64,000 bases of DNA from NCBI RefSeq assembly GCF_910592395.1, contig NC_088318.1, forward strand, positions 13,516,349 to 13,580,348. Reading direction: 5' to 3'. Each line of letters starts with the position of its first letter. The stretch's first letter is position 1. The position numbers and the translations under genes were made by a program. Source of the stretch: Lineus longissimus (lineage: Eukaryota > Nemertea > Pilidiophora > Heteronemertea > Lineidae). Below the pieces are notes generated by a model. The model saw nothing but the letters and a program-made list of their open reading frames with translations. It ran no database searches and had not been told where the DNA came from. Below are positions 6,305 to 55,487 of the stretch, piece after piece.

Positions 6305-7998
6305 ATGCAGAGCTTTTATCTTGTTGTTTCGGGCCTTTTGGTCCTCCTGAAGGTCAGCCTCGCAACAGGTATGAATGTTTTGGCCTGTTTTACCTCAAAG
6401 ATCAGAAATTCTAGAATGCTTACAACAGGTTAAAAAGCTCAATATTTCTAAGTTTAAACGAAAGGCAATTTAGGGTTAGGGTAGGACAGTTTTCGCCAAA
6501 TGTGTCGACTCGAGAATAGTTTGGTTGGAATGCCTTCCACTTTACTCTAGGCTTAGTGATTAACTGCTCCGTCAACAGTGAAGAATCCGGGCCAAGGTGT
6601 TTAAAAAAAGTTTATTGATTATAATGTTCTATTCAACTTTACTTAACTGTAGGAGATAATTCCAAGTTGAAGTTAACGCCAAGTTAATGATTTCAGAATG
6701 TGCCTACAGCGATCTAATAAATGCTGATTGTTATGGCCACGACATTGTTCACTTGAAACTGAATCTCGAGCAATGTAAGGATGCCTGTGATAAGAACTGC
6801 AAATGCAAGTCCATCCATGCCCGCCTTGGTAACTGCTGGCTGAAGAATTACGTGTGCAATGACACAGAGCTGACGAATAAAGGAATAAATCACTATGCCC
6901 AGTTCACAAGTAAGTCATATGTTTTTTGTCACCCTTTGGCACGCAGTTTTCGGTCACGACAACCTGTTTGGAACAATTTAACAGATTTGTACTAACTTGG
7001 ACAGAAAACTCAATTAGCTAAACCCGAGTGTAGGTACATGCATCATCAAGAATAAATAGTCTTTACGAATTCTTGGTATCATGCAGCACTCCTTGCTATC
7101 AAATGCCTCATTTTTGACAGAAATGGCCACAACTTCAAAAGCTTCAAACCAAAGACTATGCATCGTAAAACGCTATCTAAAACACTATTTAGTCGATGTT
7201 TGAAAGTTTCCGGATGGTAAAGTCATTCTAAGCTCCCTCCCTCAGAGTGATAGAAGTTAGTAACCAAAGACGCGGGTTATCGGATTAATTTGATTGCATG
7301 GGGGGCGGGGTTCTGTGAAAGGTCAAACTATAGTCATTATTTGGACTAAACTTTACGAAAGGGCACTTCACAAATGATCTAAAATATCTTTTCCAGAGAA
7401 AAATCCATTGGATGTCTGTAAACGTAAGTAGACATGAGCATCAACCTCGAAAGTACTGCACATCAGGTGTTGGAATTTTTACTTTCATATACATGTACGC
7501 ACATGTACGCATCGTCATTGTGCGTATGAGTATTATAAAAAAAGAGGAGACTTTGGTAAGGACGTCTCACCGCCTGTAACCGGTAGAAAGATATTGCGCC
7601 TCTAAGATATCATAGGCTGAAGCCAGCTTCGGACTCGAACGAATAATATTGTCAAAAATAGCGTTAGTCTATGCGTAGTAGATTGACAAACAAGATCGAT
7701 GATTGAAAAAATTAATGCTTTCTGCCAGGTCCTGTATCTTTCGTACATTTCAGCTGTGAAATGCGAATACGGCAAACCCATCAACGCCGACTGTTACGGT
7801 CACGACATCAAACACTTCATTGGTATGGACCCCACGCAATGCCAGGCTAAGTGTGACAAGCGATGCGACTGTGTGTCAATCCACGCCCGCTACAATCACT
7901 GCTGGATCAAAAACCATGTTTGCAATGATACCGAGCTCATTCGCAAGGGTCAGAAGGACTACGCGGAATGGAACAGTAAGGCTCACAGCTTTATTTAA
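6305..7998 (+). CDS. Secreted protein with two PAN/apple domains
   Basis: Exon 6305-6368 encodes a signal peptide (starts MQSFYLVVSG, hydrophobic core, ends LATG) and stops in phase 1 at a GTATG donor. Exon 6697-6909 encodes a first PAN module (ECAYSDLINADCYGHD...). A 27-nt microexon, 7397-7423, adds KKNPLDVCK. Exon 7754-7975 encodes a second PAN module almost identical to that at 104-325. All junctions are phase 1 and join in frame. The last exon can either splice at GTAAG (7976) or read through to TAA at 7996-7998; no later coding exon is recognisable before 10.5 kb, so read-through is the simpler ending. Probable role: extracellular binding protein; ligand unknown. Confidence 0.65.
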
Positions 7999-10595: not shown

Positions 10596-10605
10596 GGGAA
10601 TCTCC
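10596..10605 (+). promoter_or_regulatory. NF-kappaB-like site
   Basis: GGGAATCTCC fits the kappaB consensus GGGRNWYYCC at every position. It sits about 60 bases after the TATA-like element, near the inferred transcription start. One 10-mer match can arise by chance; its place beside a cytokine-like gene is the reason to record it. Confidence 0.3.
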
Positions 10606-10748
10606 GTTGAAAAAATATATTCTCGGATGCATAAAAGGCAAGATGTGGTCAGAAATATTCACTCCAAGATCATCCTTTGGAGATCATTACATTGAAGCTG
10701 TCAGCACTATCAAATTATTTCGGAATTGTTTTTCAAAGTTTTGCAAAT

Positions 10749-13482
10749 ATGTTTTTATCAAGACACGGTAAGCAGTTACAGTTGCGTCTGAATGCATCTT
10801 GGCATACAGGAGTAATAATACAGCTCACCATAATCATGGTAGTGTTCCACACTCTTGAAAGAAAGGTTTTTGAGCGCTTGAAGAAGACTTACTTCGTAAT
10901 TAGTCTTCCGAAGCTCTTAAGAGATGCGCGACCTGCCTAATAATATATTCAGTCACGAGAATATATGAGTAATGTGACAAGACGCATATTTGTTCATCAT
11001 TATTCCATCTTCATGTACATTATCATTTGATTTCAGTTATTTCAACCTCTCTCCTGTCTGCTGTTATTCTCCTTGCCGCCATGACATTTGTGACGTCACT
11101 GCCGATCTTGACCTTGGCAGGAGATGAGTTGAACCTCGTTACAACCACGACAAGCTATTTATCCACCCTGAAGCGACAGGCCCATGTCGCCTTTAAAGAA
11201 TTTGTAAGTAGCTTCACTTTTTTCCATTGGCTTCGGCAAACTCTTATCTCAGCAGGAAACATTTTATCGATTAGGCTACAATATGTACATGTATACATGT
11301 ATCTAATTTTTTTCTTATACTCTGTCCATGGCTCAGTGTTTAATGTCTGTCAGTCCTCTTTTGGCGCAAATGACGAGCGAGGAATTGTAATATATACAAG
11401 CACGTCATAGGCTGGCTTTGTTAGCTGATTGGCCATTTCTAAGCATTAGTCATTTCAGGACGAAGCTCATAATATCGATTGCGCTCGTACAGGAGAGATT
11501 AAGGCCACGCGCGACCTCGCGCGAAACAACTGTAAAACATTAGAGTAAACAACGCTACTGTAAAGTAAAACCAATAAATTTTCGATCAGCCTAATTTCTC
11601 CGGTACAATTTTCTCGTTTCTTATTTTTCCGGGCAACGAATTTTATTTATTTTTTTCCAATGAATAATATGTCACGTTGCGGTTTTTGGATTTTTGTATA
11701 CAAAAAAATATATAAGGCGAGCTTATGTATTTTTGCTAATACGGAAATGATTCGCCAAATTCCGTACAATGACTACGCAGTCAGTTGACGGTTGTAGACG
11801 ACCTCCTTATTTTCCGGGAGGGTCGCTTCTTGCTCCTATACCCAGTCTGTGTACCAAGGACAATAGATCAAGCAATATTTTCTGTCGACCTCTCAAAAAA
11901 TTTTACATTGTAAGCTTTTCTACTCATAAATCACACCATGTTTCTTTTTCTCAGAAAAAAACACACCTCCACCTCCTTCCCGCTGATGAATTCAACACGT
12001 TCAAGGATTACGCCAAATCGATCATTTCCGATCGAATAAATGTATGTAGCATACGTGTATCCCTTCCAAAGTTCCACAGATTAAACAAGACCATCACTGT
12101 GAAGGTAAAAGCATTTATTTTTGGTCATTGTGTCCATGCATCTTAAATCAGCTAGATATCATGCTGACCGCAGCCATAAATGATTGAGGTTGGGCTCAAT
12201 ACTTAAGGTGAAGAACATACCACTGACCTTGTCGGAGAAGTCGTGACCAATGTATGTATTAGAGCTTACGGGTCAAATAAACATTCCCGAGTAAGGCCGA
12301 AGCCGATCGCGAGCTCTCGGGAATGTTCGTGATGTGCATTTGAATCTTCTACAGAGTATGCCCATTACCCCCAGTGCACATACGCGCTTTCGATCACTCG
12401 ATGTGCACCCTGTGGCGACTGCAGAGAATGCCTCGCTTTCGAATTGTGCAATCTGGGGGTAATGGGTATATTCTGTAGAAGTTTCAAATGCACATCACGA
12501 ACATTCCCGAGTGCTCGGCTTCGGCCTTACTCGCGAATATATATTTGACCCATCATCACTGACCTGCTGACCCGCACTTATATTCATGTTCCCTGGCCTA
12601 AGATGAAAACCATACTGGGCCGCGTCGCCGTCATCATCATACTACACTTCCTGCCGTTGTTAGCCCATGTGTACAGGGTGGCCCAGAATTAGTTTCCCTC
12701 ACACAACGGATACACAATAGAATTCTATTGTGCAAGGGAAAATAATTCTGGGCCACCCATCAGTTATGGAAAATAGAAGTTTCAAGATGACTGTCATACC
12801 GACCATGTTGAATAGTAATGGGTTTTGAATACTTTATCGTCTCTAATTCTTCAGGAAGTGTACCGAACGCTAAAGAGGTTTGCCTTTGAGTACAAGGAAG
12901 CTGTGGATTATATTCATCGTCACGCCAGCAGGTGCGATGCACACACCCGCACACACCCTCAGAAGCTGTTAAAAGAGCTGAGAAAAATACACCATACGAC
13001 AAGGATACTGTACGATAATACTAAAACAGTGGTAAGAAAAGTCCATTTAATATACAAGATTCTGATGTTGAGGATTTAAAAAAGAATGTTGAGTACTGTT
13101 TCACCGCTTTTTGGTGTCCTCGAAACTGCTCAGATTTACGAATGAGAACTTGTTCCCGCCTTCGGTTATTACCGGGCCGTTTAAAACTGTCCATTTTGAT
13201 CAGCGTTTTCCTACAGGTTTCTTAGAGCGTTAATTTATTCATAAAAATTGTTCTTTAACGTTCATTTCTTATATTTTTCAGATGGTGGAGCTTGGTTTTG
13301 GGGATAGTGGAGAAGCACAGCACGACTTCACTGGCGCGCCCTCATCAAGCGGATGCCATTGCTTTATGGATTACTACCTGGCTGTGATGTACAGACTCAA
13401 AAAACAGACTTATCGTTTAAATACACTATGTCCTATATGTGTAAACAGCAGTCCATTCCACGACTGTTCGAAGAAATGCTAA
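10749..13482 (+). CDS. Secreted alpha-helical protein, candidate IL-6/G-CSF-class helical cytokine
   Basis: Five coding exons: 10749-10767 (19 nt), 11037-11203, 11955-12041, 12855-13031, 13282-13482. All have GT-AG borders; phases are 1-0-0-0; the sum is 651 nt, 216 residues plus stop. Residues 1-29 form a signal peptide (MFLSRHVISTSLLSAV... to FVTSLP). The rest is mostly predicted helix: about 34-62, 72-91, 92-115, 122-148 and a last helix, about 180-200 (MDYYLAVMYRLKKQ). There are six cysteines in the final exon (GCHC, LCPIC, DCSKKC), one in exon 4, and an NSS glycosylation sequon. Vertebrate IL-6/G-CSF genes have the same layout: tiny first coding exon, phases 1-0-0-0, last helix in exon 5. 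Primary sequence similarity is not evident by eye, so the class is inferred. An in-frame ATG at 10677 is an alternative start but would bury the signal peptide. Confidence 0.6.
12270..12551. mobile_element. Long inverted-repeat MITE in intron 3 of the helical-protein gene
   Basis: GGGTCAAATA...ACATTCCCGAGTAAGGCCGAAG at the left is mirrored by CTTCGGCCTTACTCG...TATTTGACCC at the right. Arms of over 100 bp include GTGATGTGCATTTGAA and TACCCCCAG segments. There is no coding content. Confidence 0.75.
12676..12758. mobile_element. Short hairpin MITE in the same intron
   Basis: GGGTGGCCCAGAATTA and its complement bracket about 50 bases, including a central TAGAATTCTA palindrome. It is probably a miniature Tc1/mariner-like element; the superfamily is a guess from the terminal sequence. 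Confidence 0.65.
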
Positions 13483-23000: not shown

Positions 23001-25566
23001 GGATATTCGTCAAACAGACCCCATCGAAGATGAGCCCATTCGTGGACTAGTGACTTGTCTGGAAAACAAGACAAGACGTTTTGCTGGCTGGTTACCGTAA
23101 CTGTCGAAAATGACGTCTTATTTGCGTTAGCGTCCTCATAAACAACGGGAAAAATCTTTCTTCATCACAATAACCACTATAATCCTCATTCATTACTACG
23201 TTAAAGGATCGTAAGACTGATACTGAGATTATCAACTTAGTGTTTTTGCGTTAAATCACCCCCGCCCAATTATACACTTTTAAAAAAAACCCTGATTTTC
23301 GTTTCAAAACCACTCACCAGGTGGCCCCCATCTGTATTGCGTCTCATTGATATTTAAGAGATACTCCGGTGTCAAATGAATGAATTCCCCTGGCTCCCCG
23401 CACCCTCCTGGTTGCCTGGTGTACGGATTATCGCCCCATACTGGATTCGGCTTGTCCACTCTTAAATTGGCCGAAGCGAAGGACTGCCCAGATTTGAGCT
23501 GGCCGAGAGTTAGGTTGTTGGGCTGAGTCCAGGTGATGGGCAACAAGATTGAGACCTCTTTGAAGTAGGCCCGCTGCCGTGTTGCCGTGAACAGCCGCTG
23601 AGAGCCTTTCGTGAAGACATCCTGAAATGGTTTTTCAATAAATAAATAAAATAAAATAAAGGAAGTGACTATTTGGCAAGCCCGGCTCACCAAACAGCGC
23701 CTTTTTTCTGCCCTGGATGGAGAGCCGAACTCATGCATATTCAACCATCCAGGAGCTCATTATCATTCGTGGCAACACGGTCAGCAACACTGGAGTTACA
23801 GTGAAACGCCTTTAGAAATGCACACTAATGCATTTAACATGCTTATCAGTTAAATCACGTTTATGACTTTTTTTGTAAATCCATACAGTCATGTACATGT
23901 ACATGCTTCTTCATGGATTATTGACCAAAACCCGAGTTTAGTAACAGAAATTGAATCGAGAGCGGGAAGTCGGCCATTGTTAAATATGCGCATATAAATT
24001 CAAATATGACGTCACTGCTCTCTGATTGGCCAACATGTTGTAACCTCTCCGGCTCGCCAAAGAGGGTAGTATTTTTGCCCTGTTTGGCAAGCCCGGCTTG
24101 CCGAACAGGGTGGCTTTTTAGTGCTGTTTGGCAAGCGGCTCTCCAAACAGGACAAAAAAAGTTGCCTGTTCGGCGAGCGGCTTGCCAAATAGACCCGGCC
24201 TAAAATAAAACCTGAAGATAGTCGATCGATTGAGACGATGTAAATTTTCGCGGCTAGATGTTCTTCGCGTGACGTCACGACGTGACGTTTGACGGCCACC
24301 TGCCAAAGCATTTCAAGCCAATATGGCAGTGCAAAACAATTGGCAACCTCATCATGTGACGTCAGTGAAGAACCTGCTCGATTCGCGAAGGTACAGTCAT
24401 GTGTATGCAAAAATAGACTCGAAAATAATTCGAAAATATTTTTTGATTGGATAAGAATTTCGTAAATCACCATAATTAAAATCGTAAAAACACTCCCTGA
24501 ACGCATGCCAACACAAAAGTGTAATGTCAGTGATCTAGTTGAACTATGGTATGATGGCATGGCATATTTTCATTTTGATCATGTCCATTTTTGATCTCAT
24601 TAACAAAGTGATGCTATCAGCTGTTAATGTTAAAGGCCAGGGACGTTGGTTCAGAATTTTAAACTTGAACTTGAGTTTGAGATATTCCAATTACGTGTAT
24701 GTGAATACGCATTTCAACCATAGAGAGACCGCTAGTAAAACATTATACATGTACACGTATACATGTATGCAAAGTTTATCTCCAATTACTTAGCTTGCCA
24801 CTTGTTAACAAATAAATGGGTGAACCTGGCCTCAGTCAACATCACTTTCTCTACGCCAATCCCCTCCCATAAGAAGTCTTCGATGAGTTTCAATAAAAAA
24901 ACATATAATGTTTTTTTTAAAAACATATTAGAAATTGATGAGCAAAGTGGTATGTATATAGATACGTTTCGTTCAAAAATGATAATCAGTTGGCTTTTAC
25001 TGGGCTCGGTTTTTTGTGACCAGGTAGATTACTAATACCCCTGTCCGCCACCATGCGTCAAACTTACCAAAGTACCTATCATGGGGCTGGAATCTCAACT
25101 GCACTGATTTCACCATAAGAAGTTCTTAACTTATAGGTACATCATTCAGAATTTGAGTTAGAATGATTTTTTTTAAATGTGCGTAATCTACATGTATGAC
25201 TATGCTGTGACAATGAGTTATACGATGTAGTAGTGTAATCTCCATAGGGAATGCGTTTTGAGCTTTTGAACTCTGAGTGAGTTTTGAAAGACCTCTAAAA
25301 GAATACTTTCTGTTCCGTAGAAAGACCTTAGAGATTTCATTTGTGTTGGTAAAACCGTTGTTTAAGGATTTTCAAAAGCTCAATGTACCTACCCTTATTC
25401 TCGTTATGATATCATCATTCTCCTGCACGTCGTTTCCAATGGCCACCAAGACATTACTGTAGCCATGGTTCTCGAAATTCACTTCGTTAACGACTTGTTG
25501 GCTCGGCCCACAAAAGAATATCAGAGCGAAGGCAAAGACGCCTAGCCGTTGATGTGACATTTTCAA
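16153..25566 (-). CDS. CLCA-like: Calcium-activated chloride channel regulator (CLCA family), complete, 14 exons
   Basis: Exons on the minus strand, 5' to 3': 25566-25393, 23621-23318, 23058-22941, 22793-22628, 22291-22153, 21876-21758, 21526-21296, 20754-20446, 20134-19904, 19202-19029, 18571-18472, 18105-17932, 17541-17317, 17087-16153. Every border is GT-AG; phases are continuous; the total is 3399 nt, 1132 residues plus stop. Order: signal peptide; CLCA N-terminal zinc-metalloprotease domain with HEWAHLRWGLFDE (165-177); VWA domain with MIDAS DTSNS (331-335); beta-rich and FN3-like regions; Thr/Ser-rich stalk; membrane span at about 1074-1100; basic KKKKSK tail. CLCA proteins are self-cleaving secreted or membrane proteins that modulate TMEM16A chloride channels and mucus. 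The gene looks intact and functional. Confidence 0.95.
19264..19578. mobile_element. Palindromic MITE with internal mirrored minisatellite, in a CLCA intron
   Basis: Ends are CTACGGTGGCTGGGAAAGG and its complement. GATTA flanks both sides (19259-19263 and 19579-19583) as a probable 5-bp target duplication. Inside, GGGGGGACGACTTATTAT units run forward on the left and as complements (ATAATAAGTCGTCCCCCC) on the right, so the whole element can fold into one hairpin. Confidence 0.8.
20446..21876 (-). CDS. CLCA von Willebrand factor A domain (exons 6-8)
   Basis: The domain runs from residue 325 to about 490. The first strand MVVLLLDTSNSM holds the MIDAS D-x-S-x-S; the NETGAATALGPGL loop supplies the Thr ligand; KIVVISDGQQT is the later strand with its Asp-Gly. 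An intact MIDAS implies metal-dependent binding of a partner, in the family a channel or matrix protein. Confidence 0.9.
21591..21606. repeat. Poly-G tract in a CLCA intron
   Basis: A G-run broken by one A (GGGGGAGGGGGGGGGG) lies in the intron between exons 6 and 7. Such tracts can form quadruplexes on this strand and are prone to length errors. Confidence 0.6.
22628..23621 (-). CDS. CLCA metalloprotease core (exons 2-4)
   Basis: Exon 2 carries YFKEVSILLPITW, the GDNPYT segment and a Cys-rich CGEPGEFIHLTPEY region. Exon 3 carries HExxHxxxGxxDE: H165, E166 and H169 are the expected zinc and catalytic residues and D176 the third ligand. Exon 4 has the closely spaced cysteines (RCTED, RCKVD, CKFYP) typical of the domain. 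All catalytic residues I can name are present, so self-cleavage is expected. Confidence 0.9.
23668..24200. repeat. Cluster of short TTGGCAAGC hairpins in CLCA intron 1
   Basis: The motif TTTGGCAAGCCCGGCTTGCC and variants (GGCAAGCGGCTCTCC, GGCGAGCGGCTTGCC) occur at about 23669, 24050, 24085, 24126 and 24170, each a near-perfect small palindrome. Probably an array of related hairpin elements; origin unknown. Confidence 0.5.
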
Positions 25567-26573: not shown

Positions 26574-27228
26574 ATCCGATTGAAAGTCAGAATGACTATG
26601 AATCGTCTTCAACACAGCATGTAACGTTACATGATACAAAATGTATTATGTGTTGACGGTGATCCATGAGTAAGCCTACCCGGGTCACATGTGCTTAAAA
26701 ACATACGATCGACCTTGATTCCAGGTGGATGTGTTTTCCCTAGTTTAGCCCACGGCTTCTCTTGATTCCAGGTGGATGTGTTTTCTTTAGTTTAGCCCTC
26801 GGCTTCTCTTGATTCCAGGTGGATGTGTTTTCCCTAGTTTAGCCCACGGCTTCTCTTGATTCTAGGTGGATGTGTTTTCTTTAGTTTAGCCCTCGGCTTC
26901 TCTTTTTCAAAGTACATTGTGTTTTCTTAGTTTAGCCCTCGGCTTCTCTTGATTCCAGGTGCATGTGTTTTCTTTGGTGTAGCCCTCGGCTTCATGTGTC
27001 GAGGGATTGCCAAGAAGAAGCCGAGTAACTACCTCTCATATCGTGCCATACTGATTCAATACCTCCGGTGGAAAATGACCGAACGAGTGGTCGCTAGGAC
27101 GCACAGGGGATTCGTCGCAGCATCTAAAGATCCCGGGAAAACCCAGGCGGATTGGTTGCTGAAGTTTCTGGCTGATAGAAAAGACACCGTTATTGGCAGA
27201 GACTGGGGTTTTGACTCAATAAAGTCCG
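26488..27228 (+). repeat. Internal duplication carrying a truncated GHDC exon
   Basis: The sequence starting TTTTCCTCTTGTC (26488) restarts at 27229, offset by 741 bases. The first copy contains bases 26959-27228, the first 270 nt of the main GHDC exon (about 90 codons), then breaks off into the repeat without a donor site. The second copy continues into the complete exon at 27606. The partial exon is a pseudo-exon. Confidence 0.85.
26714..26993 (+). repeat. 47-bp minisatellite made of splice-acceptor units
   Basis: Units start at 26714, 26761, 26808, 26855, 26902 and 26948, each about 47 bp with the form CTTGATTCCAGGTGGATGTG...GCTTCT. The final unit is the real intron end plus first bases of the exon. 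A shorter array of four units (27455, 27502, 27549, 27595) precedes the intact exon, and only about two units precede the exon in gene copy 2. Confidence 0.85.
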
Positions 27229-27605
27229 TTTTCCTCTTGTCTATAGACTCTCTACATCCAACACCTACCTGGGATACTGCCTCATTTCGTCTTAAAAATC
27301 TTGAGATATTGTGAATCCGATTGAAAGTCAGAATGGCTATGAATCGTCTTAAACACATCATGTAACGTTACATGATACAAAATGTATTATGTGTTGACGG
27401 TGATCCATGAGTAAGCCTACCCGGGTCACATGTGCTTAAAAACATACGATCGACCTTGATTCCAGGTGGATGTGTTTTCCCTAGTTTAGCCCACGGCTTC
27501 TCTTGATTCCAGGTGGATGTGTTTTCTTTAGTTTAGCCCTCGGCTTCTCTTTTTCCAAGTACATTGTGTTTTCTTAGTTTAGCCCTCGGCTTCTCTTGAT
27601 TCCAG

Positions 27606-30600
27606 GTGCATGTGTTTTCTTTGGTGTAGCCCTCGGCTTCATGTGTCGAGGGATTGCCAAGAAGAAGCCGAGTAACTACCTATCATATCGTGCCATACTG
27701 ATGCGATACCTCCGGTGGAAAATGACCGAACGAGTGGTCGCTAGGACGCACAGGGGATTCGTCGCAGCATCTAAAGATCCCGGGAAAACCCAGGCGGATT
27801 GGTTGCTGAAGTTTCTGGCTGATAGAAAAGACACCGTTATTGGCAGAGACTGGGGTTTTGACTCAATAAAGTCCGTTGAAGACTACCGGAGCAAGATACC
27901 TGTCACACGGTACGATTCCTACAAGGATTACATGGAACGTGTCGCAAAGGGTGAGGCGAATGTCGTGAATAAAGGAAAGCCTTCTTACATCGTTCTTACG
28001 TCCGGAACCACAGGCAATAACAAGAAATTCTGGTTTGACAAAGCCGTACTTTGGAATATCGCTGAAGCGGCTTACATCATACCACTTCCGTTTAAAATAG
28101 TGAAATTCCCAAGCGTAGTACATTTGCGAGAGCCATTTGTGTGCACAATTCTCCCGAATATGATGAAAAGTGAATCTGGATGCCGAATGGGGCCACTTTC
28201 GTGTTGTGTGATCGAGAATACCGTATCGACCACACCGATTGACGCAATACTTGGAATAAAGGACGAGAAAGTCATTATGTACATCCATGCTGTTTTTGGC
28301 CTGCTGCACGACGATACGGAATCTATCGTCTTCAATTTCGTTTCCTCTGCGCGAAGTTTTTTCGTCACATTGGAAACCAGCTGGAAGGATATTGTGGAGG
28401 ACATCAGGACAGGTCACCTGAATCCGTCTCTTAAACTCTCCGCTGAGCTCCGGCACACATTAGATGGGAAAATGTGGTCAAATCCAAAACGCGCTGCTGA
28501 ATTGGCTCAAGAATTCGAAAGAGGGTTTGAGGACATCATTCCGAGGATTTGGAAGGAAGCTTCCGGGGTAACGTTGCTTAGTTCCGGGAGTTTACAGGCG
28601 CCGTCTCTAACGCTGCAGCGGAGGTACTTCCCGAGTGTCCCGGTCCTCTCACCGATGCACCTTTCATCCGAGGGTTGCTACGGGGTCTGCCTTGATAATG
28701 GGTCGATTCTTTCCACATATTATACTCTGCTCCCCTTGGGGTGCTTCTACGAGTTCATACCTCTTGCGGAAATTGAAAACGATCAACCACAGACCAAGTT
28801 AATCGAGGAGGTAGGTAACGTTGTAGATAAATACTTTAGGCTTCAGGGTTATAAAAAGCTCACTCTGGTCTATCACCAAGGTGACTCTATCAAAGTTGTC
28901 TTGAACCAACACGTATGGGTGTTGCTGGCTACTCTAAGGTGTTTCCTACGAATCCTTTAGAAATGAGGCTGCGTTCATGGTCCTTACATCAAAATTGCAG
29001 TAATGAGTTGAACCCTTCGACGTTCATGATTGTATGATAATTTTCGTTGTTGGTCATTCTGCATAACTACAACCATTTATCATATACACCTGATATTGAT
29101 TTCATTGACCTATATTTTTATCGGTGTTCTATCGTCCTTCTAGCTTGAGCTGAATGAGCAGTATGAGCTGTGTGTGACCACCGACCGAGGCCTGTGTCGC
29201 TATCGTGCCGGGGACATCATCAAAGTAGTGTCCTACTTCAACAAGATACCCCAATACGAGTTAATCGGCAGGTAAATACATTGGACCATATCTTGGGACT
29301 AACAATACATAACTTAATAGAGAGGTGTCCTGATTTAAGAGGTAATATGTAATGGAAATGGCTAATTTGGGACCAAAATAGATGTCCTTACTAGAGAGGG
29401 TGTCCTTGTACAATTGTGTCAGCAAGGGAGGTCCAATTTACAGCACAATCCACTGCTCACCACGTTGCTGTCCACCTGAAAAATAAGCAGGGAAATGAGG
29501 CGTGTTTGAAAACACACACTAGAGATGTTGTACTGTGTTAGCAACGGCAAGAATGCTCCGAAAAGATAATGCATTACATGTAAGGGCCTATCGTCGTCGT
29601 CGCGTCCTTCGCCACCGTCTTATTTATACATATATACAGTATTTAGCCTAATTCCCAAGTTTGTCTATTGCAGACATGGCGTCATCCTTGATATCTGTAG
29701 CGAGAAGACTAGCGAAGTGGCCTTGACCTCGGCCTTGCAGCAAACCATGTCCAAGCTGCGTGACTTTACCATAGTCGAATTTACTAGTGCTGAGAGTAGC
29801 ATGTTGGAGACAGAAGTGGGTAAGTGGTGTCGAATAGATTTAGATTACCTTCAACCAATTTCCTGATGAATTTTTTGGCGAGTTGGATGAGGTGAAGTTC
29901 TAAAACGGTTCACTGGGGGATTCTGCCCCTACTACCCCGCCAACGCACACGCAAGCTTTTTGGATAGGATTGTCATGCGCTCTAGCTCAAACATAACTTC
30001 AAATTGGACAACTATCGAGAAGAAGAAGATATCCCTAGATGTCAACAGGTTATTCCTACATGTACCATTCAGAGGAGTTTCAGTAGAAGAGTCGCACTGG
30101 CTTCAGATCATCCAATAATGAGTATATAGTATCCTTCGCGATGGAACACTTTTATTGCAAAGTAGACAAAACGCCTTGAAACAAATTGATCACTCACCAG
30201 GATTGCTCTTTACGATTTCAGAAACGGCTGGCAGTGATAGGCATTACATCCTGTTTGTGGAGCTCGAGTCCAAATTATCAGACGAGGTGGAAAGTCTCAC
30301 AGAGGAACAAAAGGACATGGTAAGGGTTGCCCCAGGGTTGGTTTTATCGTGCTTAAACTATGTTATCGAAAACTGATTTGTCATTGCCATACATGCATGA
30401 CCGAAGTATAAAATGATCCCCTAGAAAATCTGTCCGGCCCTATCGTTTTCTGACAGATAATGATATATGGTTTTATAGAGGCCGTGGCTGCAAAAGCTTG
30501 GAGTTTAAATCGTAAAATAGAATCCTTCGTTCCCGGGACATTACATCCCTACGACATTTCAAACCTCTACACCTGGATAGGTTTTGCCCCGATAGTTCCT

Positions 30601-33455: not shown

Positions 33456-33530
33456 GTTTAGCTCTCGGCTTCTCTTTTCCAAGTACATTGTGTTTTCCTT
33501 AGTTTAGCCCTCGGCTTCTCTTGATTCCAG

Positions 33531-36500
33531 GTGCATGTGTTTTCTTTGGTGTAGCCCTCGGCTTCATGTGTCGAGGGATTGCCAAGAAGAAGCCGAGTAA
33601 CTACCTATCATATCGTGCCATACTGATGCGATATCTCCGGTGGAAAATGACCGAACGAGTGGTCGCTAGGACGCACAGGGGCTTCGTCGCAGCATCTAAA
33701 GATCCCGCAAAAACCCAGGCGGATTGGTTGCTGAAGTTTCTGGCTGATAGAAAAGACACCGTTATTGGCAGAGACTGGGGTTTTGACTCAATAAAGTCCG
33801 TTGAAGTCTACCAGAGCAAGATACCTGTAACACGGTACGATTCCTACAAGGACTACATGGAGCGTGTCGCAAAGGGTGAGGCGAATGTCGTGAATAAAGG
33901 AAAGCCTTCTTACATCGTTCTTACGTCCGGAACCACAGGCAATAACAAGAAATTCTGGCTTGACAAAGCGGTACTTTGGAATATCATTGAATCGATTTAC
34001 ATCATACCACTTCCGTTTAAAATAGTGAAGTTCCCAAGCGTGGTACATTTGCGAGAGCCATTTGTGTGCACAATTCTCCCGAATATGATGAAAAGTGAAT
34101 CTGGATGCCGAATGGGGCCACTTTCGTGTTGTGTGATCGAGAATACCGTATCGACCACACCGATTGACGCAATACTTGGAATAAAGGACGAGAAAGTCAT
34201 TATGTACATCCATGCTGTTTTTGGCCTGCTGCACGACGATACGGAATCTATCGTCTTCAATTTCGTTTCCTCGGCGCGAAGTTTCTTCGTCACATTGAAA
34301 ACCAGCTGGAAGGATATTGTGGAGGACATCAGGACAGGTCACCTGAATCCGTCTCTTGAAATCTCCGCTGAGCTCCGGCACACATTGGAAGGGAAAATAT
34401 GGTCAAATCCAAAACGTGCTGCTGAATTGGCTCAAGAATTCGAAAGAGGGTTTGAGGACATCATTCCGAGGATTTGGAAGGAAGCTTCCACGGTAACGTT
34501 GCTTAGTTCCGGGAGTTTACAGGCGCCGTCTCTCACGCTGCAGCGGAGGTACTTCCCGAGTGTCCCGGTCCTCTCAGCGATGCACCTTGCATCTGAGGGT
34601 TGCTACGGGGTCTGCCTTGATAATGGGTCGATTCTTTCCACATATTATACTCTGCTCCCTTTGGGGTGCTTCTACGAGTTCATACCTCTTGCAGATATTG
34701 AAAACGATCAACCACAGACCAAGTTAATCGAAGAGGTAGGTAAGGTTGTAAATAAATACTTTAGACTTCAGGGTTATAAAAAGCTCACTCTGGTCAATCA
34801 CCAAGGTGACTCTATCAAAGTTGTCTTGAACCAACACGTATGGGTGTTGCTGGCTACTCTAAGGTGTTTCCTACGAATCCTTTAGAAATGAGGCTGCGTT
34901 CATGGTCCTTACATCAAAATTGCAGTAATGAGTTGAACCCTTCGACGTTCATGATTGTATGATAATTTTCGTTGTTGGTCATTCTGCATAACTACAAACA
35001 TTTATCATATATACCTGATATTGATTTCATTGACCTATATTTTTATCGGTGTTCTATTGTCCTTCTAGCTTGAGCTGAATGAGCAGTATGAGCTGTGTGT
35101 GACCACCGACCGAGGCCTGTGTCGCTATCGTGCCGGGGACATCATCAAAGTAGTGTCCTACTTCAACAAGATACCCCAATACGAGTTCATCGGCAGGTAA
35201 ATACATTGGAACATCTCTTTGGACCAACAATACATAACTTAATAGAGAGGTGTCCTGATTTAAGAGGTAATATGTAATGGAAATGGCTAATTTGGGACCA
35301 AAATAGATGTCCTTACTAGAGAGGGTGTCCTTGTACAATTGTGTCAGCAAGGGAGGTCCAATTTACAGCACAATCCACTGCTCACCACGTTGCTGTCCAC
35401 CTGAAAAATAAGCAGGGAAATGAGGCGTGTTTGAAAACACACACTAGAGATGTTGTACTGTGTTAGCAACGGCAAGAATGCTCCGAAAAGATAATGCATT
35501 ACATGTAAGGGCCTATCGTCGTCGTCGCGTCCTTCGCCACCGTCTTATTTATACATATATACAGTATTTAGCCTAATTCCCAAGTTTGTCTATTGCAGAC
35601 ATGGCGTCATCCTTGATATCTGTAGCGAGAAGACTAGCGAAGTGGCCTTGACCTCGGCCTTGCAGCAAACCATGTCCAAGCTGCGTGACTTTACCATAGT
35701 CGAATTTACTAGTGCTGAGAGTAGCATGTTGGAGACAGAAGTGGGTAAGTGGTGTTGAATAGATTTAGATTACCTTCAACCAATTTCCTGATGAATTTTT
35801 TGGCGAGTTGGATGAGGTGAAGTTTCAAAATTGTTCTAAAACGGTTCACTTGGGGATTCTGCCCCTACTACCCCGCCAACGCACACGCAAGCTTTTTGGA
35901 TAGGATTGTCATGCGCTCTAGCTCAAACATAACTTCAAATTGGACAACTATCGAGAAGAAGAAGATATCCCTAGATGTCAACAGGTTATTCCTACATGTA
36001 CCATTCAGAGGAGTTTCAGTAGAAGAGTCGCACTGGCTTCAGATCATCCAATAATGAGTATATAGTATCCTTCGCGATAGAACACTTTTATTGCAAAGTA
36101 GACAAAACGCCTTGAAACAAATTGATCACTCACCAGGATTGCTCTTTACGATTTCAGAAACGGCTGGCAGTGATAGGCATTACATCCTGTTTGTGGAGCT
36201 CGAGTCCAAATTATCAGACGAGGTGGAAAGTCTCACAGAGGAACAAAAGGACATGGTAAGGGTTGCCCCAGGGTTGGTTTTATCGTGCTTAAACTATGTT
36301 ATCGAAAACTGATTTGTCATTGCCATACATGCATGACCGAAGTATAAAATGATCCCCTAGAAAATCTGTCCGGCCCTATCGTTTTCTGACAGATAATGAT
36401 ATATGGTTTTATAGAGGCTGTGGCTGCAAAAGCTTGGAGTTTAAATCGTAAAATAGAATCCTTCGTTCCCGGGACATTACATCCCTACCACATTTCAAAC

Positions 36501-36999: not shown

Positions 37000-39314
37000 G
37001 AGTAAAATTGGCGACAGATGCAGTTTCCCCATTCCCGGCCCAATTCCCGGAATCGCATTACAGAGGCCAGAGGTCCAGTGAGGATAACTAGTATATATAA
37101 TGAATAATCAACAGACACTACTGTGATTCATTGGTACATGGATTCATTTATCATCAACAAGGATATCAAATCAACATCATGCATTAACAGAACAGTCTAG
37201 CGCGTTGATAGCATTAATGAGATCAGTGGTATATTCTGTAGGATGCCGAACGATGGATATATTCGCAGCAGAATATTTTCGTGAATCAAGGTTATTTTTT
37301 CTAATGAAATTTTAATTGTCTTCTTTTACATAGAGCTCTCAGAGAATAGGCGCTGCAGTTTGGATGGCTATATTAGAATACTCCAATCCACTGTCAACAG
37401 GTCTCATTGTGTCGGGTAGTTAGGCCAATATAGCACACAAAGATGGGTATATATCACTAATAATTAGGCAATAGTCATTCAAGAGGTGTGGAATTTGTGT
37501 TTGTTAGGGGTAATCATATACGTGAAAATTGGCAAGACTCCTCTTGAAATTGATATTTAGATGAGGTGTTTGTAAACCCCATACCAAAATGATACTCAGC
37601 TGACCCATACTTGTAAAGGGAATATAAAATGAACTGTACATGAACTTATTGAGGGTAGTGTATATTTTAGGAGATATTATGTGTAAAATTTCAAGTCTTC
37701 ATTTTCTTTTGAACGAGGTGTACGAATGCAAAAAAACAACAACACAGAGCAAACGGCTACGTGCGTAAACCTGTTTCGCGTCAAGTTGCGAAAACACCTT
37801 TTGCACGACCATGCATCGCCTCAATAGATATACCTCGATGTGACTTATTATGCAGACGTTTCAAATGCTGTTTTTTAAAGGAAAACAAATTCAAATTCTG
37901 AAATAACTCTCTTCTAAGCCTTGTTATAGTCGTCTGATAAACATTCCCGATTGTGGTCATCTTGTTTATTGATTTCTTTGACATTTTTGACATCACACAT
38001 ACGAAGTATGGAAGGTAGATATATGCTTCCCGTTATTATCTCCTGTCACAAAGGCCGTCAAGGGAAATAATACAGTTTTTTTTCTTCGACTTGACATATA
38101 TATTCTGCTTAATTTAAAGCCATTCACCGTCTGTGTGTGATAAATAGAAAGATATTATCGCGAACGTGACCTACTAGCGAAATTCGCGAAAAAAACCTAC
38201 ACGCGACATTTTTCTGTGCTAGAGTATTATTACTGTAAATTCTTGAAGCAGACAACGAAACAATGTTGTTGTCTAAATCGGTTACGACAACTGCATGTAG
38301 CTCAGAATGAGTGCAAGTTTTTAACATGATATCTTTTGACATGGAGTAGTTATTACATTATGAATTTAGTGACTTTTTGGGGCCACCCTGAAATATATAA
38401 AATGCATAGGATATTCGATATTTATCAAGTAAATAAGTACATTTTTTGTTTTCGAAGTCTGTGAAAATCTCATGTCGGACAGTGACAGAGTGGGAGTGAA
38501 ACCAGTGCCGCCGAACCATGAGAGTCGAGTGAAGGACGAATAAAATCGACAATTGAAACTCATTACTTTCCTGCGTCATTTAGCAAATACAATCAGTGGT
38601 GCGCGAAAAAGTCATCGTTTGATTATATGTGTTTATAATATCGTTAATTTCCCCCGAGAGCAGAATCCATCAGAGAATTAAAAGCTTTGGTGCATCCATA
38701 GCGGTGTAACCTCGTCAATGGATACCCACTTGGCGAGTTGTTACCCAATCGACCGCTTTCGCTCTTTGACTACGCAAGTCCTGTCCACCGCAACTGCAAC
38801 TCGTGTCATTTCTGGAAATAGGCTGGCGCAAAAAGTGCAAATCTGCGCATGTCCTTGTTGATTTCGACGATGATTTTCTTATTCGCTGTCGCTGTTATGT
38901 GGTGAAAAACCAAGTCAACATCGGTGAGATATAGCCCATTTTTAAAAATGCAGACTTACGTAAGATGATGTACATTTTGGATATTCGCTCACGTGCCGTG
39001 CCGGTGTAGTGGCTTTGAGTGTTATATGTGTGTGTTTCCCCTACAATAAATCAGTCATCGAATGGTGTTTGCTTATCGAGAGGTCGTCTCATCTGTTAAT
39101 AGGGGAATAACAGGAACACTGAAAAATGTAAAACACTGACATACATGATACACCGGAGTAAATATTGGAATTCTATTCGAATCCGACGCAAAACTTGATT
39201 GGGCTAAAACTCGTCTTTCGAAGATCATCGCCAGGCTTCCAGTTTCGAACCACAATTTAATCAAAGGTATTAACAGGAGTTTATACACATCTAACGTTAG
39301 TGTTGGATTCAATT
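37000..39314. other. 3' flank of GHDC copy 2 and spacer before the channel gene
   Basis: Up to about 38000 this is the duplicated 3' flank. From 38000 to 39314 I see no gene or clear repeat; the promoter of the DEG/ENaC gene should be here. Confidence 0.5.
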
Positions 39315-45767
<6,453 letters not shown>

Positions 45768-50774: not shown

Positions 50775-53700
50775 TCAAACTGACACAATCGACATCTTGG
50801 TAACGTCTGATTTCTCTTCCTTCATGGGAGTCACCTTGTTTCTATCAAAGGACTTCTTCACGAGGCTGATGGGCGCCCAGGATCTGCCTGTGTTTTCACT
50901 CATATCACTTCCAGAACTTCTGACTTTCTTCTTCTTGTTGACAGTGGCAAGGCCGAGACAGCAGGCCACTATCTCCGTGACTCGTAGTACGTACATGAGA
51001 CCCAACCAAGGATCTGCTGGGGCGAAAGCAAACGGCGACAGCACGCCAAAGACACCAAATGCCGCATAAACATGCGCAGTCGCCATGATGAACGCATCAG
51101 CAGCAAACAGGCCGAGAGTAACCACAATTTGTTTCCTGCCGCTTCCTTGAGCTCCTGCGGAGGCGCCAAGGTTAGACGCTATTTTATGTGCAGCGTACGA
51201 GTAGCCAGCCACCATACACAGTCCAAATAAAAAGAATAAAGTCTGGCACATGAGGAGCAATATCTTCGCCGTAACATAAAGCTCCACTATCACGTCCACT
51301 GTAGTCACTAGGACGAAATGCCCGACGATAGCGCCAAAAATCGTCTGCCATTTTGTGAATAAAGGCGGCCCCATGGACATCTTCGTAGAGTCCAATAGCA
51401 CTGCTAATAAAAGAGTGAATATTCCTGTTAATGCTGGCCAGCCAGTTGACCAGAACAAGCGATAGGCTAAGAGCGGCAGTCGTCCTTTTGAATTATATGG
51501 ATCCGCAAGTAATAAGATCCCTCGTGAAAATCCAAGCCACCCCACAAGACAATTGAGAGATAATCCGAGATATCCCTTCGTGGCAGCATCTTCGACCTGT
51601 GTCCGTCGGTATATGTACATTCCAATATTATAGATGCATATCAATGCGATGATTAGAAAAATAATTCCAATCAAGTAGAAGTGAATCTGCCACATGATTT
51701 GCCATTGTTGTGTAGTGCTATCCCATTCGGGTACAGGTTCAGCTTCTGATAGACCACGGCCACCCTCCGCCTCGGGGAATAGGGTGCTGTTACCAAACCC
51801 CTCCGGCTCCGAAGAAACATTCCAATTCTCTGGTTCCACATTTGGCGTTGAATATTCGGCCTCGGGATACATCTTCGATTCTGGTTCTGGTATTACAGAT
51901 GTACCATTCTTAGATACCGCAGGCTCAGGACTGCTATTTATTTCGGGCTCAGCACTTGCCTCGACTTCAGGTTTAGCACTGGGTTCTGAACTGCTTTCTG
52001 CTGCGGGCTCAGGACTGCTTTCAGGTTCCGGTTCAGCACTAGTAACTGTGTTAGGTTCAGCGCTGGATTCAACCTCAGGTTCAGCACTGGCTTCTGCTGT
52101 TGGTTCAGCACTGGTTTCTGCTTTTGGTTCGGCACTTACTTCCGCTTTTGGTTCAGGGCTAGTTTCTGATTTTGGTTCAGTACTGGTTTCTACTTCCGGT
52201 ACAGCACTAGCTTTGGCTCCTGGTTCTGCACTTGCTTCTGCTGTTGGTTCAGCACTGGTTTCTGCTGTTGGTTCAGCACTTGCTTCTGCTACTGGTTCAG
52301 AGCTAGTTTCTGCGTTTGGTTCAGCACTGGTTTCTACTTTCGATACAGCACTTGCTTCTGCTTCTGGTTCAGCACTGGTTTCTGCTGTTGGTTCAGCACT
52401 AGTTTCTGCTGTTGGTTCAACACTGGTTTCTGCTTTCGGTTCTGTACTGGTTTCTACTTCCGGTACAGCACTAGCTTCGGCTCCTGGTTCTGCACTGGTT
52501 TCTGCTTTCGGTTCGGCACTTACTTCCGCTTTTGGTTCAGGGCTAGTTTCTGATTTTGGTTCAGTACTGGTTTCTACTTCCGGTACAGCACTAGCTTCGG
52601 CTCCAGGTTCTGCACTGGTTTCTGCTGTTGGTTCAGCACTAGTTTCTGCTGTTGGTTCAGCACTGGTTTCTGCTGTTGGTTCAGCACTGGTTTCTGCTTT
52701 TGGTTCGGCACTGGTTTCTGCTGTTGGTTCGGCACTGGTTTCTGCTGTTGGTTCAGCACTGGTTTCTGCTTTTGGTTCGGCACTTACTTCCGATACTGGT
52801 TCAGAGCTAGTTTCTGCGTTTGGTTCAGCACTGGTTTCTACTTCCGATACAGCACTTGCTTCTGCTGTTGGTTCAGCACTGGTTTCTGCTGTTGGTTCAA
52901 CACTGGTTTCTGCTTTCGGTTCGGCACTTACTTCCGCTTTTGGTTCAGGGCTAGTTGCTGCTTTTGGTTCAGCACTGGTTTCTGCTGTTGGTTCAGCACT
53001 GGTTTCTGCTGTTGGTTCAGCACTGGTTTCTGCTTTCGGTTCGGCACTTACCGCCGCTTTTGGTTCAGGACTAGTTTCTGCTTTTGGTTCAGTACTGGTT
53101 TCTACTTCCGGTACAGCGCTAGCTTCTACTTCTGGTTCTGCACTGGTTTCTGCTTTTGGTTCAGCACTGGTTTCTGCTTTTGGTTCAGCACTGGTTTCTG
53201 CTTTTGGTTCAGCACTGGTTTCTGCTGTTGGTTCAGCACTGGTTTCTGCTTTTGGTTCGGCACTTACTTCTGCTACTGGTTCAGGGCTAGTTTCTGCTTT
53301 TGGTTCAGCACTGGTTTCTGCTGTTGGTTCAGCACTGGTTTCTGGTGTTGGTTCAGCACTGGTTTCTGCTGTTGGTTCTGCACTGGTTTCTGGTGTTGGT
53401 TCAGCACTGGTTTCTGCTGTTGGTTCAGCACTGGTTCCTGCTGTTGGTTCTGCACTGGTTTCTGCTGTTGGTTCAGCACTGGTCTCTGCTGTTGGTTCAG
53501 CACTGGTCTCTGCTTCAGGTTTAGCACTAGTTTCTGCTTTTGGTTCTGCAGTAGTTTCTGCGTAAGTTTCAGATTTCGTACTACTTTCGGCAACAGCCAT
53601 TAGTTCAAATTCAGTAACACCACCTGCAGCCTCAGCCACCACACTCGTTCCTGTCAAAGGTGCAGCAGTAGCTGTAATTCTTGGTCCTTGCGTATCGGCA

Positions 53701-55487
53701 ACCACAGTTGTTGGTTGCAATACAGCAGTTAATGGTACTCCTACAGGCAATCCTGTTGGTGCTTGTGTCAGCTGTGTAGAAGATCTCACTGCGTGTGTGG
53801 TCCGTTCTGCCAAAGGCCCGTCTGTTGCTTCAACTGGAATCTCAGCAGCTGATTGAAATTCTAAAGATCTTGTTAACCTCGCTGTTAGCACACTCGTAGA
53901 TTGATCCGTAATCTCACTTATTGATTCATCTACAGTTTGCGTGGTATGTTTTGTTCCAGACCCTCTCGCTGGTTCAACTACAGACAGAGTTGTTAATCCC
54001 TTTGACAGAGTTGTTGGCTCTGTCGCTGGCCGTGTTGGTTCTTCTTTAGGCTGGACGTTTAGTTCAGTTGTTTTCGGAGTAGTTGACCCTGCTGCTGGCT
54101 GCCGTGTTAGATATGTTCCAGGCTGCTTTTCGAATTCTGTTGGAGGACGAGTTATTAATTCTATAGGAGGATGAGTTGTTTGTTCTTTTGGAGGATGAGA
54201 TGTTTGTTCTATTGGAGGAGGATGTGTTGGATTTGTTTCCGGTTGTGTTGTTGGTGGTTCTGTTGCAGGCTGAGCAGTTAGTTCAGTTATTGCCCAAGTC
54301 GTTAATTTTGTTGCTGATTGAGTATTTAGATTTGTTACCGGTTGAGTTGTTAGTTCTGCAGCAGGCTTAGTTGCCGGTTCTGCAGCTGGCTGAGTGATTC
54401 GTTCTGTGGCACGCTGAGTTTTTGGATCTGGTACCGACTGAGTAATTAGTTCCGTTGCAGGCTGAGTTGTTGGATCTGCAGCAGGTCTAGTCGTTGGCTC
54501 TGCTGCAGGCACAGTTGTTGGTTCTGCGGCAGGCTGAGTAGTTGGTTCCTTCGCGAGCGGAGTTGTTAGTTCTGTTGCGGGTTGAGCTCTTGGTTCTGCT
54601 GCAGGGGCAGTTGGCTGAGTTATTGGTTCTGTGTCCGGCAAAGTCGTTAGTTCTGGTGCAGGCCGAGTTGTTGGTTTTGCTGCAGGCCGAGTGTTTGATT
54701 CTTCTGCAATCACAGCTGTTGATATAACTAGAGCTCGAGTCGCTACAGACTCGCTTGTCGATTCAGTGTCAGACTCAGTAGTTGATTCAATTGCAATTTC
54801 CTTTGATGCAGATCTGGATATTGATATAACTTCAGGCTCAGTCGTTGGTTCTACTACCAGCTCACCTATTAAAGTTACTATAGTCTCAAATGTGGAGACA
54901 GGGAGAGTTGTTAGTTTTGTTTGTTGTGGTTCACTTCTAAGATCTTCTACCCACTGGGTCGTAGAATCGTCAGCAAAGGGAACTGTTGACTGAATACCTG
55001 GAACTGTAGTCGTTTCTACCACGTTCTCACCTAGTTGTCGAGCTGTATGCTCCGTCGTTAATGGATCGGAAATTTCAGTAAGTGCACTCAGTGGTTCAGT
55101 CGTTTTAAATGCTGATTCTCGTTGAGTTTGGCTTGATCCCGCAGTAGTTTTCGACGCAAGCTTCGTTGGCAATTTCGCTACATGTTCAGTTGTGGTCCAA
55201 AGTGATGGCTGGGTAGTCGATTTCTCTTGAGCCTCATTTGTCGATTTAGTGTTAGTAACTAACTGAGCAGTAGTTCCGGATTTAGATGTTAGCTCACCAG
55301 TTTCTTCGGTGGCTTGTGTATCAGGAGTGGTAGGGTCGTTCTCGGCAACAGTTTTTGTTGCCAGCAAAAGCTCGATTGGATCTGGACCTGATGTTGATAC
55401 TGCATTGGCCTCTGTAGTCTGGTTAACCTCGGGTTCAGTGATGAATGCGTCTGCGTTCAGGACCGACGTATCTTGGTCGATGACCAT
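50775..55487 (-). CDS. Large mucin-like multi-pass membrane protein, PRRT3/PRRT4-like C-terminus
   Basis: One long exon encodes 1570 residues. The ATG at 55485-55487 is preceded in frame by TAG and, 30 bases up, by a TCTCTCTTGCAG acceptor, so a 5' UTR exon lies upstream. Residues 1-640 are Thr/Pro-rich with degenerate repeats (TTQPAAEP type). Residues about 642-1182 are an 8-residue repeat (TSAEPTAE/KAE). From about 1264 there are roughly seven hydrophobic spans; LLLADPY followed by a GRLPLLAYRLFW segment and HFVLVTTVD resemble PRRT3/PRRT4. The C-tail has Lys/Ser clusters (KKKKVRSSGSD). There is no N-terminal signal peptide. The likely topology is a long O-glycosylated extracellular N-terminus on a multi-pass membrane domain. 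Function in the family is poorly known. Confidence 0.75.
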   Translation of the reverse strand: MVIDQDTSVLNADAFITEPEVNQTTEANAVSTSGPDPIELLLATKTVAENDPTTPDTQATEETGELTSKSGTTAQLVTNTKSTNEAQEKSTTQPSLWTTTEHVAKLPTKLASKTTAGSSQTQRESAFKTTEPLSALTEISDPLTTEHTARQLGENVVETTTVPGIQSTVPFADDSTTQWVEDLRSEPQQTKLTTLPVSTFETIVTLIGELVVEPTTEPEVISISRSASKEIAIESTTESDTESTSESVATRALVISTAVIAEESNTRPAAKPTTRPAPELTTLPDTEPITQPTAPAAEPRAQPATELTTPLAKEPTTQPAAEPTTVPAAEPTTRPAADPTTQPATELITQSVPDPKTQRATERITQPAAEPATKPAAELTTQPVTNLNTQSATKLTTWAITELTAQPATEPPTTQPETNPTHPPPIEQTSHPPKEQTTHPPIELITRPPTEFEKQPGTYLTRQPAAGSTTPKTTELNVQPKEEPTRPATEPTTLSKGLTTLSVVEPARGSGTKHTTQTVDESISEITDQSTSVLTARLTRSLEFQSAAEIPVEATDGPLAERTTHAVRSSTQLTQAPTGLPVGVPLTAVLQPTTVVADTQGPRITATAAPLTGTSVVAEAAGGVTEFELMAVAESSTKSETYAETTAEPKAETSAKPEAETSAEPTAETSAEPTAETSAEPTAGTSAEPTAETSAEPTPETSAEPTAETSAEPTPETSAEPTAETSAEPKAETSPEPVAEVSAEPKAETSAEPTAETSAEPKAETSAEPKAETSAEPKAETSAEPEVEASAVPEVETSTEPKAETSPEPKAAVSAEPKAETSAEPTAETSAEPTAETSAEPKAATSPEPKAEVSAEPKAETSVEPTAETSAEPTAEASAVSEVETSAEPNAETSSEPVSEVSAEPKAETSAEPTAETSAEPTAETSAEPKAETSAEPTAETSAEPTAETSAEPTAETSAEPGAEASAVPEVETSTEPKSETSPEPKAEVSAEPKAETSAEPGAEASAVPEVETSTEPKAETSVEPTAETSAEPTAETSAEPEAEASAVSKVETSAEPNAETSSEPVAEASAEPTAETSAEPTAEASAEPGAKASAVPEVETSTEPKSETSPEPKAEVSAEPKAETSAEPTAEASAEPEVESSAEPNTVTSAEPEPESSPEPAAESSSEPSAKPEVEASAEPEINSSPEPAVSKNGTSVIPEPESKMYPEAEYSTPNVEPENWNVSSEPEGFGNSTLFPEAEGGRGLSEAEPVPEWDSTTQQWQIMWQIHFYLIGIIFLIIALICIYNIGMYIYRRTQVEDAATKGYLGLSLNCLVGWLGFSRGILLLADPYNSKGRLPLLAYRLFWSTGWPALTGIFTLLLAVLLDSTKMSMGPPLFTKWQTIFGAIVGHFVLVTTVDVIVELYVTAKILLLMCQTLFFLFGLCMVAGYSYAAHKIASNLGASAGAQGSGRKQIVVTLGLFAADAFIMATAHVYAAFGVFGVLSPFAFAPADPWLGLMYVLRVTEIVACCLGLATVNKKKKVRSSGSDMSENTGRSWAPISLVKKSFDRNKVTPMKEEKSDVTKMSIVSV
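51940..53560 (-). repeat. Coding 24-bp minisatellite (8-residue repeat)
   Basis: About 65 units of 24 bp encode variants of TSAEPTAE, with TAE, KAE, GAE, EVE and VSE forms. Larger blocks of several units are themselves repeated (the SAVPEVETSTEPK block recurs), showing higher-order duplication. The frame is preserved throughout. Confidence 0.92.

Follow-up and report, generated by a model that had tools for sequence, protein, structure and literature searches.

We describe a gene of the nemertean Lineus longissimus that is located on the forward strand at positions 10749 to 13482 of a 64,000-nucleotide stretch of genomic DNA (C11:13516349-13580348), which we refer to as the window, and that belongs to a family of at least 4 paralogs in this species. 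We regard the gene, the family, and the exon architecture as firmly established, and the gene structure, the paralogy, and the coding constraint are observed directly. The best single reading, to which we assign a probability of about one in two, is that the gene encodes a long-chain class I cytokine-like ligand, for which we infer a bundle topology, a receptor, a pathway, and a role. The original prediction, made from the sequence alone, had assigned the gene to the IL-6/G-CSF class in particular, an assignment that was supported neither by Pfam nor by profile comparisons.

Gene structure and paralogs

The genome searches were performed on the NCBI assembly of 391,118,348 bases in 30 contigs, which corresponds to the published 391 Mb nemertean genome (PMC8593623). 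The gene model rebuilt from the sequence contained 5 coding exons of 19, 167, 150, 177, and 201 nucleotides (nt), in total 714 nt for 237 amino acids. The first coding exon (10749-10767) encodes MFLSRH plus 1 base, which represents the n-region of the signal sequence, and is followed by the phase-1 donor GTAAGC. Exon 2 (11037-11203) contains the remainder of the signal sequence and most of predicted helix A, while exon 3 (11955-12104) covers the end of helix A and a long AB connection, in which a short helix is predicted at residues 78 to 87. Most of predicted helices B and C, the short link between them, and Cys139 are encoded by exon 4 (12855-13031), and the end of helix C, the CD connection, helix D, a Cys-rich tail, and the stop codon (13480-13482) by exon 5 (13282-13482). 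The 4 introns all had GT-AG ends and their phases were 1-0-0-0, in agreement with the original prediction of 5 in-frame exons with good splice sites, these same phases, and a 19-nt first coding exon that carries only the start of the signal peptide.

The total length of 651 nt given in the original prediction was incorrect and equals the sum obtained if exon 3 is taken to end at 12041, immediately upstream of a decoy donor (GTATGT, 12042-12047) that is located inside exon 3 and is not used in the NCBI model. The exon 3 donor at 12105 is favored because it is supported both by the NCBI model and by the length of exon 3 in the paralogs (162 to 165 nt). With this donor, and with cleavage after Ser27 as judged by eye, the mature chain comprises about 210 residues rather than the 188 originally stated. 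Exons 2 to 5 agree with the NCBI annotation, since the product of LOC135495378 ("uncharacterized", 216 amino acids) was identical to the window protein from Met22 to the C-terminal end. The NCBI record lacks exon 1, its protein begins at Met22 within exon 2, and the hydrophobic stretch is thereby shortened; in the translation, exon 1 completes the hydrophobic, signal-like sequence MFLSRHVISTSLLSAVILLAAMTFVTS, with the cleavage site placed by eye.

A genome search with the window protein gave 4 exon matches to the gene itself, together with 2 weak matches on chromosome C9 with E-values of 0.057 and 1.0. In the 90 kb around the weak matches, 3 paralogs were identified in tandem on the forward strand, here called B (from 1721348; exons of 19, 182, 165, 207, and 159 nt), A (from 1728984; 19, 170, 162, 207, and 159 nt), and C (from 1734487; 22, 149, 162, 189, and 159 nt). 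Paralogs A and C were identical to NCBI LOC135493725 and LOC135493998, respectively. All 4 family genes displayed the phases 1-0-0-0, and the first exon was 19 nt long in 3 of them and 22 nt in C, where it was one of 3 candidates in the scan and was settled by the NCBI record. The amino acid identities ranged from 0.52 to 0.60 among the paralogs on C9 and from 0.32 to 0.35 between these and the window gene. Cys139 (window numbering) was invariant across the 4 aligned proteins, and the motif YL.V.Y.LK.QT was present in the helix D region encoded by exon 5. The Cys-rich end noted in the original prediction is real but peculiar to the window gene; the other 3 paralogs end at the stretch predicted as helix D in A.

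The ratios of nonsynonymous to synonymous substitutions (dN/dS, NG86) were 0.31 for A-B, 0.23 for A-C, and 0.29 for B-C at dS values of 1.0 to 1.7, and 0.39 to 0.49 for the 3 pairs with the window gene, at dS values that were near saturation (1.4 to 1.9). Blastn matches among the C9 paralogs lay on the exons and extended little into the introns. The first exons were compared as 38-nt stretches, comprising 13 nt upstream, the 19-nt exon, and 6 nt of the donor. The window stretch identified exon 1 of paralog A as the best of 202 sites with an ATG followed by GT at +19 on both strands of the 90 kb (28 of 38 positions; next best 21), and in reverse, among 153 such sites in the window, 10749 gave the best match to the stretch of paralog A (28 of 38; next best 20). 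The first-exon match between the 2 genes is thus more than chance. It is scarcely credible that we are dealing with an artifact, i.e. mispredicted exons or a pseudogene. NCBI carries 3 of the 4 family proteins, all as "uncharacterized", and the absence of exon 1 from its record of the window gene and of paralog B from the 3 records returned by the protein search would fit such a view, whereas the identity of the independent NCBI models for A, for C, and for the window protein from Met22, the coding constraint, and the reciprocal first-exon match all argue against it.

A TATA-like sequence, CATAAAAGGC, was located at 10630-10639 (forward strand); its first base lies 119 nt before the ATG, and the element is a weak lead. 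A kB-like sequence, GGGAATCTCC, was observed at 10596-10605 on the same strand, with its start 34 nt before the TATA-like box; in the 3 paralogs, the 300 nt that precede the ATG, scanned on one strand, contained no such sequence. Intron 3 contained a foldback element (12261-12560) with 73-nt arms that were 90% complementary and an outer 46-nt pair that was 85% complementary.

Predicted helices and positions of the introns

The signal sequence of the window protein was judged by eye, and 4 long helices were predicted at low confidence with AlphaFold2 for the window protein as well as for paralog A, with mean predicted local distance difference test (pLDDT) values of 48.5 and 55.9, respectively. 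In the model of the window protein the helices spanned residues 37-69 (A), 111-138 (B), 147-174 (C), and 195-225 (D), separated by putative links of 41 (AB), 8 (BC), and 20 (CD) residues, a long-short-long pattern that would suit a long-chain cytokine. The model of paralog A contained a signal helix at residues 11-26, and its helix D was placed at residues 207-237. The last amphipathic helix that had been proposed for exon 5 of the window gene coincides with a predicted helix, but its hydrophobic moment was not above that of shuffled sequences (p 0.13).

Introns 2 to 4 were located after residues 62, 112, and 171 in the window protein and after residues 63, 117, and 186 in paralog A. Relative to the helix ends, which are taken from weak models, intron 2 was placed 7 (window) or 3 (A) residues before the end of helix A, intron 3 was placed 1 or 5 residues into the start of helix B, and intron 4 was placed 3 residues before the end of helix C in both proteins. 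In the genes for IL-6, G-CSF, and growth hormone (GH), the coding sequence is first interrupted, within a few codons, by a phase-1 intron, and the phase-0 introns that follow lie close to where helix A ends, helix B starts, and helix C ends; the coding exons of human IL-6 are 19, 191, 114, 147, and 168 nt long. The five-exon plan with phases 1-0-0-0 is common to the long-chain class I group at large, including GH/prolactin and EPO, and is no mark of IL-6/G-CSF in particular. By this definition of the architecture, all 4 paralogs contained the 5 coding exons, the phases, and the tiny first exon. Five exons and 4 introns have been described for the G-CSF genes of carp, human, and mouse (PMC6389648) and for human IL-6 (PMC9800921), papers that are cited here for the exon count only, the phases and the 19-nt exon of IL-6 being general background. 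The prolactin gene has likewise been described with 5 exons and 4 introns, along with a noncoding exon 1a (PMC10158951).

With assumed phase frequencies, the string 1-0-0-0 is expected by chance in about 3% of cases, and the weight therefore rests on the joint fit. An alternative is that the genes encode a lineage-specific secreted helical protein, for example in mucus, reproduction, or defense, which would be no cytokine and in which the 4 helices would be convergent and the exon plan a coincidence. We consider this a serious possibility, albeit a somewhat doubtful one. Phase-1 introns often occur close to signal peptides, as this alternative would have it, whereas the phases, the tiny first exon, the number and order of the helices, and the 3 intron-helix positions jointly fit the class I plan, and the exon plan was kept in 4 of the 4 paralogs.

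Sequence and structure comparisons

A fold search against four-helix cytokines had been suggested in the original prediction. We used Foldseek against the PDB, for which 50 matches were listed of 301 for the window protein and of 346 for paralog A (E up to 10). The class I cytokines IL-11, prolactin, G-CSF, and GH were among the matches listed, with 8 of the 50 entries being class I cytokines for each of the 2 proteins. IL-11 was the first match of the window protein (probability 0.90, E 0.066, root mean square deviation [rmsd] 19 Å), while paralog A matched prolactin with a probability of 0.93 and G-CSF with a probability of 0.82, a template modeling score (TM) of 0.59 by target over 198 columns, and an rmsd of 6.8. 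The cytokine matches and the 4 long predicted helices count in favor of a long-chain cytokine, but none of the matches was significant, and the up-up-down-down arrangement was not readable from the low-confidence models.

Several results weigh against a cytokine-like ligand. No fold match with an E-value of 0.001 or less was obtained with Foldseek in the PDB for the window protein or paralog A, and the cytokine matches of the window protein superposed badly, with rmsd values of 18 to 20 Å. The low-confidence models matched many unrelated bundles, with ferritin-like bundles among the competitors, and VIA-align listed unrelated bundles and no natural cytokine among its matches for the 2 proteins. 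The predicted links in paralog A (45, 16, and 17 residues, from a low-confidence model) also make the long-short-long pattern unclear. No Pfam match to a cytokine family, including IL6/GCSF/MGF, was obtained at E-values up to 10 for the window protein and the 4 family members; the only weak matches were unrelated to cytokines, the best being R2K_2 (E 0.041). The PDB sequences contained no cytokine match to the family proteins. In hhalign comparisons of the family with IL-6, G-CSF, LIF, CNTF, GH, and EPO, for which 6 human proteins were used, all 6 scored below the maximum of 15 shuffles, including the best, G-CSF (17.2 versus 18.3). No relative outside Lineus longissimus was found among 5.8 billion proteins in searches that required shared five-residue words. 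Finally, the search for a class I receptor in the genome with PF09240, a follow-up of the gp130-like receptor suggested in the original prediction, yielded no match over the cut-off, and 2 weak matches were rejected, although fly Domeless is likewise described as lacking this domain (PMC13203501).

The absence of relatives among the proteins searched and of a sequence link to cytokines, as well as the unrelated bundles matched by the weak models, count in favor of a lineage-specific protein. True IL-6/G-CSF membership, taken narrowly, is improbable. Points in its favor are the 19-nt first coding exon as in human IL-6, the position of IL-11 as the first Foldseek match of the window protein, and the TM value of paralog A with G-CSF; against it stand the negative Pfam and hhalign results, the presence of prolactin and GH beside G-CSF among the Foldseek matches listed, and the sharing of the exon plan with GH and prolactin. 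A four-helix protein of another class, such as a ferritin-like one, is even less probable. The VIA-align matches listed for paralog A started at residues 1 to 11; 49 of these 50 reached no farther than model residue 203 and the remaining one reached 218, so the signal helix was used as the first helix and helix D was wholly or mostly omitted. Furthermore, a signal sequence is present, and no ferritin-like fold was found among the 50 Foldseek matches listed for the window protein.

The original suggestion of a fast-evolving cytokine, with its ancestry seen in the gene structure, holds in part if the product is read as a long-chain class I cytokine-like ligand. Supported are a signal-like sequence, a predicted predominance of helices, a divergent family, and a map of exons, phases, and predicted helices that fits the long-chain class I group, whereas no sequence link or significant structural link was detected.

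Relation to known ligands and proposed mode of action

Like IL-6, IL-11, and G-CSF, the window gene has 5 exons and encodes a product of about 200 residues with a signal sequence and, by prediction, 4 long helices; the Lineus family differs from them in that no similarity was detectable by sequence or profile and no fold match reached an E-value of 0.001. The likeness to GH and prolactin consists in the exon and intron numbers of the prolactin gene, the phases, and the occurrence of both hormones among the Foldseek matches listed, whereas no sequence kinship with GH was found by hhalign and the phylum is another. The amphioxus GHl protein has been described as a type-I helical cytokine of 208 amino acids with low identity to GH (PMC9010856), and it is set beside the Lineus family on the basis of this description. 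The Drosophila Unpaired proteins (Upd1-3) are secreted invertebrate ligands of Domeless in JAK-STAT signaling; none of them was among the protein-search matches to the Lineus family.

The window protein would be secreted as a mainly helical chain of about 210 residues and might fold into a bundle of 4 helices in which the A-B and C-D crossovers are long, presumably in the up-up-down-down arrangement. Such a bundle could join 2 chains of a gp130/Domeless-type receptor, and this pairing could start JAK-STAT signaling.

In a 2026 survey that covered 18 metazoan phyla or subphyla, IL-6 was identified only in vertebrates, while IL6R-like genes extend to molluscs and JAK/STAT to sponges (PMC13203501). 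The survey applied BLAST thresholds of E up to 1e-5 and at least 30% identity, with no nemertean named in its list of groups (PMC13203501), and a family like that in Lineus would be missed at these thresholds. In amphioxus, the GH-like cytokine is accompanied by several divergent related genes, and in the available text genes of this sort are reported for amphioxus but for neither sea squirts nor acorn worms (PMC9010856). We found no report of a class I cytokine ligand from a nemertean or another spiralian in the literature searched, which excluded preprints and most subscription journals. Exposure to Vibrio diazotrophicus has served as a challenge in Lineus ruber (PMC9835746). Tentatively, and as a nearly balanced matter, the family may represent a protostome (spiralian) branch of the long-chain class I cytokines that can be recognized by its gene architecture. 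The bilaterian ancestor might then already have had the exon-to-helix map with 5 exons and phases 1-0-0-0, the ligand arm of Domeless/gp130-JAK-STAT signaling would be no vertebrate invention, and spiralian ligands would have been missed since only the gene plan and the fold persist. If confirmed, a spiralian ligand family would make the question of the missing ligand directly testable, and gene architecture could guide searches in which sequence comparison is of no help.

Other features of the window

Two near-identical open reading frames of 460 amino acids were located in tandem on the forward strand (27578-28960 and 33503-34885), with a partial copy at 26931-27314. In the first copy, which was the only one scanned, Pfam detected a GH3 domain (PF03321, E 2.7e-52), whose family is best known from plants. 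On the reverse strand, an exon for a calcium-activated chloride channel regulator (CLCA, PF08434, E 2.3e-23) was identified at 23304-23756, and frames farther along this strand, as far as 16153, may be part of the same gene; they include a stretch rich in Thr and Ser and a hydrophobic end. The frame at 39261-39755 (forward strand) matched the amiloride-sensitive (DEG/ENaC) sodium channel family (PF00858, E 1.4e-18, profile positions 1-107 of 455) and probably represents the N-terminal exon of such a gene. Three similar Cys-rich frames on the forward strand (37-348, 6660-6995, and 7687-7998) appeared PAN/apple-like by eye, and the one at 6660-6992 had no Pfam match at an E-value of 0.001. Finally, an open reading frame of 1572 residues on the reverse strand (50775-55493) contained long repeats of the AEPTAETS type, followed by a hydrophobic C-terminal part that resembles a multi-pass membrane region.
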